Of a DNA stretch of 64,000 bases, positions 4,474 through 26,700 are shown piece by piece. Every line of letters begins with the position of its first letter. Position 1 is the stretch's first letter. Below the pieces are notes generated by a model. The model had not been told where the DNA came from and ran no database searches. It saw nothing but the letters and a program-made list of their open reading frames with translations. The translations under genes were made by a program, and so were the position numbers. The stretch is from Agelas oroides (Eukaryota > Porifera > Demospongiae > Agelasida > Agelasidae), in the NCBI GenBank assembly GCA_949130485.1, contig OX422186.1, positions 8,379,837 to 8,443,836 on the forward strand. The letters are read 5' to 3'.

Positions 4474-4730
4474 TGATAAATAATGAAGATATAGTAAACA
4501 AAATTAACAGTGACAGGTATGTATGTGGTTCACTGGTATAGCCAGCATGATGATAACACAGTTAACTAACTGAAACTAGCACAAGCAAGCAAATGTGACT
4601 GTCATGCAACATTTCATGTAAATTATGGAATTCTTGCTAAGCAACCAGGAGAGATGTGCAACTTCCTATGCACATACTGTCCTCATAGGATGGCAAGGGC
4701 CACTGTCCAAATAACTGCAAAGTCACTTAC

Positions 4731-5485
4731 CACAGTCAAAGTTGCTGTTGGGCACCAAGGGAGGTGTGCAACTTCCCACACACATGTTATTCTCAAAGTA
4801 GTTGCAACAGCTACTGTCTAAACGATTGAAGCACCTCATGAGGCTGGGTTGTGTAGTGTTACAGGCTGAGTTGCAGGCTTAGAAGAGTGTGTGTGTGTGT
4901 GTGTCGGGGGGGGGGGGGGGGGGAAGTAAGATCATACAAACATTGGCACAACATGTTTTAGTTTTACTCACATCCACAGTGCTGCTCATTGTTAGTGATA
5001 GTAGCAAATCCAGATCTTGCTGGACTGACACACACTCCACAGTCTGTTCTTAGGGTGGTTGATAAAGTGCCATTTGGGGGAGTTGTGATGATGTTGGAAG
5101 TACTTCCACCCACACTGGCAGTCCAGGTAGAGCCAGTCGCACACTCAAAGTCAAATTGGGAGAGAGTGGGGTTCCCAGTACACTCGGAGAGGGCACCAGT
5201 GCAAGTGTAGTTCACGACGACCGACACCCCACTGTACGTGTCCCGAGTGCGACCATTTCTGAGACACACGATGTTTGAGTCGTGCACCTGCACACTCACT
5301 GACAGTGAAGGGTCTCCCCTAACAGCCTGAAACACGTCTTCGATTAGTCCAGTTTCACTTGACATATCCGTGGCCCCCAGGTCACTTACATTGAACATTG
5401 GGCAATCGATTTGACAGCTGACAGGTACCACAGTCAGTGCCACAATGAGCAACCATGCCCCCAGATTGAATAACACTCCCATCAT
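4731..5485 (-). CDS. Partial paralogue of the EGF receptor: signal peptide and Cys-rich exons only
   Basis: Two exons, 5485-4972 and 4877-4731, reproduce exons 1 and 2 of the receptor at 20807-19472. Exon 1 has a hydrophobic signal peptide after MMGVLFNLG, ends in a GTGAGT donor after T of a GGA-T codon, and joins in phase 1 to exon 2 after a CTAAG acceptor; exon 2 ends G|GTAAGT. Both frames are open and cysteines are conserved. Exon 2 carries a few extra residues (TTQP replacing VG). No sushi, EGF or transmembrane exon was found between this point and base 1. It is either a truncated duplicate, a gene whose remaining exons lie outside the window, or a source of a short secreted head. Expression is unknown. 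Confidence 0.6.
4906..4923. repeat. Poly-G run after a short TG tract
   Basis: A run of about 17 G follows (GT)n between exons 1 and 2 of the partial paralogue. Such runs recur at 7270-7290 and 7389-7403 (C), 16225-16239 (C), 26880-26899, 43766-43779, 51376-51390 and 59410-59425, mostly inside transposon-derived sequence. Confidence 0.8.
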
Positions 5486-23653: not shown

Positions 23654-23749
23654 ATATCCGCAATGCCCACCTAATCAGTGTCTCGACTCCGCCCCTCAAA
23701 GTAGTTGGCAGGGTCAAAGTTCAATCTCAGCCTCTGCCGCTGCTAACAG

Positions 23750-26700
23750 ATGTCCTTCAATCTCTCCAGTTTTGGCGAGCACGTCTGCATCTGTGGCCCT
23801 CCTCTCTGGTTAGAATTGGAAATGACCCAAGGAGCTTTGTTGTGGTGCCATGTGCATGTCTGTGTCACATGGCCAGCCATTGTGCTTATCTTGTCACTTT
23901 TATCTTCACCATTGACGGCCATTGTTTGCAAACATGGTGAAAATGTTTTCCTTTCATTGCAGTGGGAAGACTTCCTTGTTGTTCCAGCATGCTCTGAGGT
24001 GTGCAGAAAAAGGGAGCTCAGTCCTATTCGTCTCCCCCTCCCCTCTCGATCGGCTGCCCTTGCTTGGAAAGGACAGCCATCCTCCATCGCCCCACCTTCT
24101 CAAGAATATCCAGTTCAAGTCAGTGTAAAATCCAATTGTGTCTACTACAGTGGAGTCCGTCTTAAAGAACACCATGTAATTAAGGACGGAAGTATTTGAA
24201 TGAGGGGCAAAGAAAGTGTCCTAGTAATGGGCATCCTAAAGCTATACGTACAAAGTTGGGACTTGTTCAAGCATACTAGTTGGTAAGGTATCTATTAAGA
24301 CTGCAGTAGACCCTCTCAGAGTACGCACTGACCTGAACTAGCGACCAGTAGATTCCCTGCTGACTTGAGCTGAGATTGCATGTATGCACTGACTTGAACT
24401 GGAGACTACAGTAACAGTAGATCCCCTACACACTGACTTGAACTGGAGACTACAGTAGATCCCCTACACACTGACTTGAACTGGAGACTACAGTAGATCC
24501 CCTACACACTGACTTGAACTGGAGATTATTCCTTCAAATTATGCACTAACTTGAACTGGAGATCAGTAGACCCCAGGGGCAGATCCAGAGATTGAAGAAG
24601 GGGGAGGGGCATATAGAGTGGGGATTGGCGGGAGGTGTGTAGCATGCAGTTGTCCGTGTGCGTATAGTGGACAGTGTTCTAGGAGGGTCTGGGGGTATGC
24701 TTGCTCTGGAAATTTAGACCTTCTGAGGCCGTCGGAGACCACCACCATAACTATGCAAAATTTATGGTCCCTGGAGTCCAACTCAGGCCATTCATTGTAA
24801 TGTTGTTTCTCAGAGCTCCCTTCGGAATCAACCTTTCAATTTGAGGCACTGCCACAGAACGGTCTCTTGGGAGCTGCAGTTTTGAGCGTTTAATGTTTGC
24901 AGGACATGAAGCAATAGAGCTGTGCACTGCGTGTGCTAAGCGCACAGTGAACCTCTGCAGTTTGCACTTGCTCAGTTCCGAAGGGGGGGGTGGGGGGCAT
25001 AGCCCTGGATCTGCCCCTGGGGTTATGCAATGACAAGAACTACATAAGACTACAGTAGAACTCTAATAAGGACCCTTAGAACAAAAGAGTTGGGACAATA
25101 AACAACTTGGAATTGGGGCTTGCTCAAGTGACTTGATTAGCAAGTCATTGTGTAATATGAGTGAGTCTACTAGTCTCCTCCACTCAGGAAGAGGTTCCAT
25201 TATAACATGTAACCGGAGAGGTTCCACAATAGTCTGCAGTTCAAGTCAGTGTGTAATTACTCATTTCAAGTGAGAAGCTCAAGCAGGGTATCAGTTGAGC
25301 TGCACCACTGTAGCTTAGGTTATGCCATGCTAGGTTAACAGATGATAGACAAAACTTCTTTTCTGCACATTTTGTGTGTGTGTGTGTGTGTGTGTGTGTG
25401 TGTGTGTGTGTGTGTGTGTGTGTGTGTGTGTGTGTGTGTGTGTGTGTGTGTGTGTGTGTGTGTGCGTGTGTGTGTGTGTGTGTGTGTGTGTGTGTGTGTG
25501 TGAGAGAGCCTGTACCTGCATGCATACCGAAAATCTACTATATAGTGGGCGTCAAAGCTGATGATAAAATAACACTGGTACTCCCCCCCTTCTCAGGAGG
25601 GTTAATCCTCATTGTAGTGCCAGGAAAACGAATGAGAACACAACTTTAATGGTAGCCCACTAAGGGTTAAATGGCATTTTCCTAACCCTGTACCCAGACA
25701 ATCGTCTCACTTGTGGTAGGGAAACCCTGATAAAACTCATCACATGCAATGATGTACCTGGACGACTTTGGAGGCGTGGCACATTCCTGGTTACTTTTGC
25801 TCTCACAGCCAATAGCTGAGCACCAAGCAAGTTTAGCAATCATCCAGGGGCTGACCCACGATTTGTGTGAGGGGGGTGGTCAACAGTTTTCAGTTTTCCC
25901 ATAGCACCCCTTGGCAAAATTGCCCTACTAGATGTTGCTGTGGAAAGCATTTACACTCAAAATAAGTGGGTTTGTCATGGTAAAAATGGACCCCCCAAAA
26001 TTGGTTCCCCCCGGAACTTATTTTATTGGAAAATATGGACTCCCTCTGAAAAATTTGGACCTCCTCCCAGAGATGAAATAATATAGACCCGGGAACATAT
26101 TTCACTTGCAAAATTTGGACCAGTAGCGTATGTAGGGGGATTTCCGAGGTTTCTGGAAACTACTCAGGCCCGTCAGTTCAGCAGCACACAATGTACTGTA
26201 GTCTCATTGCACGCAACGCCCAGTTTCCACGTACATTGTGCAAAGTTTGCGACGAAAGCACGTTTCGAACACTGCGTGGGGCCACTGAGGCATACTCATG
26301 AAAAACTGTCATTCCTTTCTCTAGATATGCAACTGTGAACTCCACTAATGTCCTTAGTAGTCACTGATTTGCCTTCGTGTGGCTGGCCTATAGTGGGAAC
26401 AAATTTTTCAGAGCGGGTCCAGAAAAATTCGTTCTGGGGGGAACCAATTTTAGGGGGGTCCAAATTAAACATGACAGTTTTTTTCCATGTACCTTCTGTT
26501 GGTACGATTTGTTATTATGGGATGGGATACTTCCAACACATTGCACAACACCAGTCTACAAAAAAGGAGAATTGGCTAGCCACCCTTTCCACCCCTCCCC
26601 CTGTCACCACAACATTGCCGTCAACATCAGATTACGTAAAGAATTTCCAGATCTTCATATGACATCCAGGGACATCATTGCACATGATGAGCTTGGCTAT

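Follow-up and report, generated by a model that had tools for sequence, protein, structure and literature searches.

Two copies of a divergent gene-pair front

The locus described here raises the question of how the head of an EGF-stalk receptor gene and, on the opposite strand, the front of a SWSAP1 gene came to stand twice in close succession in the genome of Agelas oroides, and which of these gene copies are complete. We compared a stretch of 64,000 nucleotides (the window; C4:8,379,837-8,443,836, C4 being its contig) with itself and used its pieces to search the 259.3 Mb of the assembly (141 contigs). An earlier note on this DNA had described two blocks, here A (left) and B (right), with the same order and orientation. 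Pairwise alignment confirmed that the blocks are real paralogous copies sharing this order, which is borne out by six aligned pieces with identities of 76-87%. On the minus strand these are the receptor Cys exon plus flanking intron (A 4612-4889, B 19356-19621; 87%) and the receptor head exon (A 4965-5568, B 20293-20896; 87%), the two together spanning 19356-20896 in B. They are followed by a short spacer piece (A 7092-7204, B 23212-23321; 76%), the block of SWSAP1 exons 1-2 (A 7292-7697, B 23694-24066; 79%), a minisatellite (A 7895-7965, B 24465-24532; 82%) and the region of a TG tract (A 8005-8360, B 25047-25418; 83%). The E-values of these pieces, from about 1e-14 to 0, are far beyond chance, and the bulk of the spacer (A 5569-7091, B 20897-23211) gave no alignment between the copies. 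In the 259-Mb genome the block of SWSAP1 exons 1-2 matches at 2 places, copies A and B themselves, and the same holds genome-wide for a piece of SWSAP1 intron 2 (25047-25372).

Receptor A beyond the window edge

Inside the window, a receptor body is seen only between the two blocks, where the tail, TM, Cys-rich exon, EGF array (10799-13057) and sushi exon (18889-19104) of receptor B occupy 8476-19112 on the minus strand, the EGF and sushi domains being recognised by Pfam. No receptor body or second EGF array lies left of head A within the window, which favours the earlier model, in which the receptor gained only an orphan head from the duplication and SWSAP1 only a dead one. That model is refuted by the flanking sequence, and we consider it almost certainly wrong: the body of receptor A sits 0.2-6.8 kb left of the window start (8,379,837), colinear with the B body. 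Its downstream exons (C4:8,373,035-8,379,592) have the order and orientation found in B, namely sushi (C4:8,379,410-8,379,592), the EGF array with its end at C4:8,374,543-8,374,701, a Cys-rich exon (C4:8,374,195-8,374,329), TM (C4:8,373,767-8,373,910) and tail (C4:8,373,035-8,373,148). All seven recognised exon blocks (head, Cys, sushi, EGF, Cys-rich, TM and tail) are present in receptor A; five of them are stop-free throughout, and TM and tail are open across the aligned core among the tblastn matches listed. The head exon, which carries the signal peptide and head domain and was aligned with its 5' flank, has 170 stop-free codons, and the Cys-rich exon at 4612-4889 an open frame of 51.

The orphan look of receptor A came from the window edge, and what lies there is probably a full gene made to resemble a fragment. 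The receptor body described between the blocks does exist, but it belongs to copy B, A having its own to the left. Likewise, the claim that only the second block reaches the downstream exons of both genes stands for SWSAP1, whose exons 3-4 occur full length once genome-wide, and fails for the receptor. Across four exon blocks, the A and B receptors differ by a dN of 0.077 and a dS of 0.176, and the ratio of 0.44 fits purifying selection on average and is no proof of function. The head domain of neither copy matched a Pfam family.

Position 4515, given previously as the left limit of block A, is not an edge of the duplication and lies approximately at the edge of an insertion of about 4.7 kb private to A, beyond which A/B homology picks up at window position -233 and extends to about -7215. 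This insertion, in the intron between the Cys and sushi exons, is a transposon cluster (1-4474, beginning left of the window) with pieces about 89-100% identical to many other places, and it contains perfect 131-bp inverted repeats at 3795-3925 and 4344-4474. The pyrimidine tract that precedes the sushi exon in B is missing from A, where foreign sequence stands in its place at C4:8,379,601-8,379,639 (window about -235 to -197). A young transposon ends there beside the acceptor, and the A sushi exon may therefore splice poorly.

A decayed and an open copy of SWSAP1

SWSAP1-B consists of four exons on the plus strand, placed by eye at 23750-23808 (exon 1, with the ATG at 23750), 23963-24118 (exon 2), 27386-27512 (exon 3) and 28224-28309 (exon 4; GC donor inferred). 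A Walker A motif, GPPLCGKT (GxxxxGKT, read by eye), is split by intron 1 and forms across the exon 1-2 junction. P-loop matches are weak (a RecA chain in the PDB at E 0.014; Pfam AAA_25 at E 0.0033, under Pfam's cut-off), and the spliced protein is 31% identical over 107 aa (E 2e-6) to a human SWSAP1 sequence. Judged by these similarities, the gene is SWSAP1, RAD51-paralogue-like. A genome search with its exons 3-4 gave a single full-length hit, and the remaining 46 rows were short hits on a single repeat contained in the query. The exon 3 and exon 4 peptides matched nothing except B within 283,836 bases of the contig.

Over 7350-7697 on the plus strand, SWSAP1-A keeps exon 1, with its ATG at 7350, and, from 7594, the beginning of exon 2. 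Exon 1 runs into a stop at its sixth codon following a frameshifting net loss of 7 bp, and an additional C-to-A change creates a TGA in the old frame. Exon 2 is inverted in its last third (7767-7876, minus strand, against 24065-24176 reversed; 89% over 112 bp), and 7697-7722 matches 24374-24399 on the opposite strand (100% over 26 bp). No exon 3 was found. The previous description of this head as dead agrees with these lesions, by which the copy is a pseudogene. In SWSAP1 intron 2 we also observed a 38-bp minisatellite (24387-24525), in whose unit the exon 2 donor region recurs as its reverse complement, and this reversed donor sequence may have promoted the inversion in SWSAP1-A.

A novel junction between a receptor head and SWSAP1 intron 2

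To the right of the A block, the remnant of SWSAP1-A intron 2, with a short TG tract, runs on the plus strand from 8005 to 8442, where it reaches the junction (83% to 25047-25418). The TG tract was ruled out as the breakpoint because intron 2 homology returns past it, at 8406-8442, which matches SWSAP1 intron 2 at 25692-25728 with 81% identity, and none of 1000 simple shuffles gave as good a match. Further right, beginning at 8441-8452 according to which head is used for comparison, the sequence matches the stretch of receptor heads that encodes the signal peptide, most clearly at C4:8,372,621-8,372,693 and 8,369,505-8,369,539. The signal-peptide stub alone measures about 35 bp and is equalled in score by 3 of 1000 simple shuffles, and its match carries on into the 5' flank of the head. 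No further genome match was found for 8376-8475 at E 0.001.

By these alignments the novel junction is mapped to about 12 bp (window 8441-8452), and in the feature at 8441-8476 (minus strand) a third receptor head, cut short within its signal-peptide codons, is joined to SWSAP1 intron 2. Given the intron 2 match on its left and the signal-peptide match on its right, the copied segment spanned the interval from the first coding exon of the third head to SWSAP1 intron 2. An origin by exchange between two homologous receptor heads was rejected, since the right breakpoint lies in SWSAP1 intron 2, about 4.8 kb off head B. No long homology is evident between the break points, and a few bases of microhomology are beyond judging given the divergence. 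As one break falls in an exon of one gene and the other in an intron of a second, that is, in unrelated sequences, end-joining or replication-based repair would be a likelier origin than an exchange between repeats.

The duplicated unit at the edge of a receptor cluster

Extended to both sides, the comparison gave unit A at 8,372,621-8,388,278 (15.7 kb) colinear with unit B at 8,388,277-8,405,564 (17.3 kb), with large unaligned gaps and an inversion of about 240 bp, the shorter EGF matches being omitted from this listing. As delimited by this alignment, the duplicated unit comprises a complete receptor gene together with the front of SWSAP1. Outside the two units the flanks are undisturbed, the third head passing without a break into its own 5' flank to the left of A and SWSAP1 proceeding into exons 3-4 to the right of B. 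Adjacent colinear copies with a single novel junction are what defines a tandem segmental duplication, and this colinearity, together with the one new junction, supports the earlier proposal that the two blocks go back to one duplication.

A tblastn search found 16 receptor heads in 283,836 bases of the contig (8,350,001-8,360,000 left out), of which 9 share one strand (8.176-8.289 Mb) and the remaining 7 have the opposite one (8.334-8.401 Mb). They form a cluster of at least 16 heads at C4:8.176-8.401 Mb, with a strand switch between 8.289 and 8.334 Mb; in the whole genome the receptor head has at least 20 matches, itself included. Before the next head is reached, a Cys exon comes after 14 of the 16 and a sushi exon after 11, and long EGF arrays were found only at A and B. 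Two heads are frame-broken, h8271 and the third head at C4:8,372,192-8,372,657. The latter, which has no Cys exon before the next head, is the true orphan head of the locus and lies outside the window. SWSAP1 marks the right edge of the cluster, and the position of A and B at this edge would explain why the duplication clipped a flanking gene. A literature search on sponge receptor clusters with sushi and EGF domains returned, among the matches listed, no title on this receptor family, a paper on SRCR being at the top.

Head A is 87.8% identical to another head, h8369, and 86.9% to head B at the nucleotide level (BLAST), and the head protein of B is 83.5% identical to that of A and 75.8% to that of h8369. 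In a tree of the 16 heads, A, B and h8369 were left unresolved, A not being joined with B, and dating by the head exons was dropped for this reason.

Divergence of the copies and alternative origins

Outside the receptor exons, A and B differ by a K2P distance of 0.127 over 1716 mostly non-coding sites in 8 segments, one of which contains SWSAP1 exons 1-2. This distance bears on the possibility that the assembly had placed two diverged haplotypes in tandem. High heterozygosity is common among marine and freshwater invertebrates, and this speaks for such an artefact. Against it, the K2P distance and a dS of 0.18 are far from the near identity expected of alleles, A and B carry different insertions and copy-specific lesions, SWSAP1 exons 3-4 are full length just once in the assembly, no N occurs across the 283,836 bases of contig, and both copies belong to a cluster of 16 receptor heads. 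The non-coding divergence of about 12% and the copy-specific lesions in particular argue against misplaced alleles, a reading that the sequence evidence disfavours and that we judge highly improbable.

Both copies carry insertions of their own. In the cluster of A, a 680-bp piece is 100% identical (rounded) to all 39 of the other places scored (40 of 974 candidates scored). The spacer of A holds a further private repeat of about 353 bp (6532-6884), for which the best other places reach 94% identity over the first 295 bp and 89% over the full length, and that of B a private repeat of 395 bp (21521-21915), 95-97% identical to at least 41 places (40 of 1219 candidates scored). The B spacer stretch with the 395-bp repeat is flanked by 75-bp inverted repeats (91%) at 21128-22344, possibly nested elements. 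Since these insertions are nearer to their kin than A is to B, we took them as younger than the duplication. Copy B does have a later insertion, as was previously described, but so does A, where the youngest one seen, the 680-bp piece, is located.

Divergence is uneven along the unit, with per-segment K2P values from 0.05 to 0.25 (chi-square p 5e-9; 0.002 excluding the 3' flank), so that later gene conversion or separate events are conceivable. The EGF arrays consist of 117-bp units, 15 whole ones in A (C4:8,374,546-8,376,573) and 16 in B (window 10943-12956), and the nearest unit lies in the same copy for 24 of the 31 (12/15 in A, 12/16 in B), in the other copy for 6 (2 of A, 4 of B), with one tie in A. 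Mean mismatches per unit are 8.8 within A, 8.4 within B and 9.0 between them. This suggests some turnover of EGF units within each copy since the split, and no more. The uneven divergence, the counts of nearest EGF units and the broken third head at the left edge of unit A would all suit a history of several exchanges, in which gene conversion and other, later rearrangements within the cluster altered an older duplication. However, the layout is explained by one junction, to which conversion would be an extra, and the EGF mismatch means are nearly equal within and between copies; we regard several exchanges as unlikely.

Proposed course of events and comparison with known systems

Taken together, the locus very probably arose when a segment reaching from the signal-peptide codons of the third head across a whole receptor gene into SWSAP1 intron 2 was duplicated in tandem, head to tail, in one event. 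We infer the following order of events. The copied segment would start in the signal-peptide codons of the receptor head at C4:8,372,192-8,372,657, cross the complete neighbouring EGF-stalk receptor gene and end in SWSAP1 intron 2, at about window position 25728. Afterwards the locus would contain two receptor genes, neither lacking a recognised exon, separated by a SWSAP1 front without exon 3 onward. SWSAP1-A would then have decayed through a frameshift, a stop and an internal inversion, whereas SWSAP1-B kept its exons open; SWSAP1-B and both receptors presumably work.

The event is of an ordinary, well-known kind, a tandem duplication with a partial gene copy. In the yeast CUP1 arrays, YHR054C is reported to be identical to the terminal 1 kb of RSC30, the complete RSC30 stands at the distal end, and the arrays are ascribed to unequal non-homologous recombination (PMC4232551). 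The likeness extends to a unit that ends inside a flanking gene, a partial copy in the array with the complete gene at its edge, and unrelated sequences joined at the junction. In contrast, the yeast repeats measure about 1.2-2 kb (PMC4232551) as against the unit of about 16 kb here, and the flanking gene is represented by its 3' part in YHR054C but by its 5' part in SWSAP1-A, which has decayed. Partial gene duplicates are described as frequent in worm, fly and yeast genomes (Katju 2012, PMC3449122); by comparison, SWSAP1-A is a by-product beside the complete duplicate of another gene. The exon-shuffling tandem duplications of Drosophila yakuba likewise capture genes in part and were described from a population sample with RNA-seq (PMC5460883), whereas the present case is known from one assembly and from sequence alone.

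It is also conceivable, though very unlikely, that the SWSAP1-A front keeps a working promoter and that a putative transcript crosses the junction, antisense to the 3' end of receptor B. If true, such antisense transcription would link one receptor of the cluster to a promoter from a RAD51-paralogue-like gene. For annotators, SWSAP1-A is best treated as a pseudogene and receptor A as probably a full gene. The locus is an old and clear case of a cluster of genes that grew at its edge and bit into the neighbouring gene, in which a complete duplicate stands beside a decayed partial one and private insertions supply relative dates.
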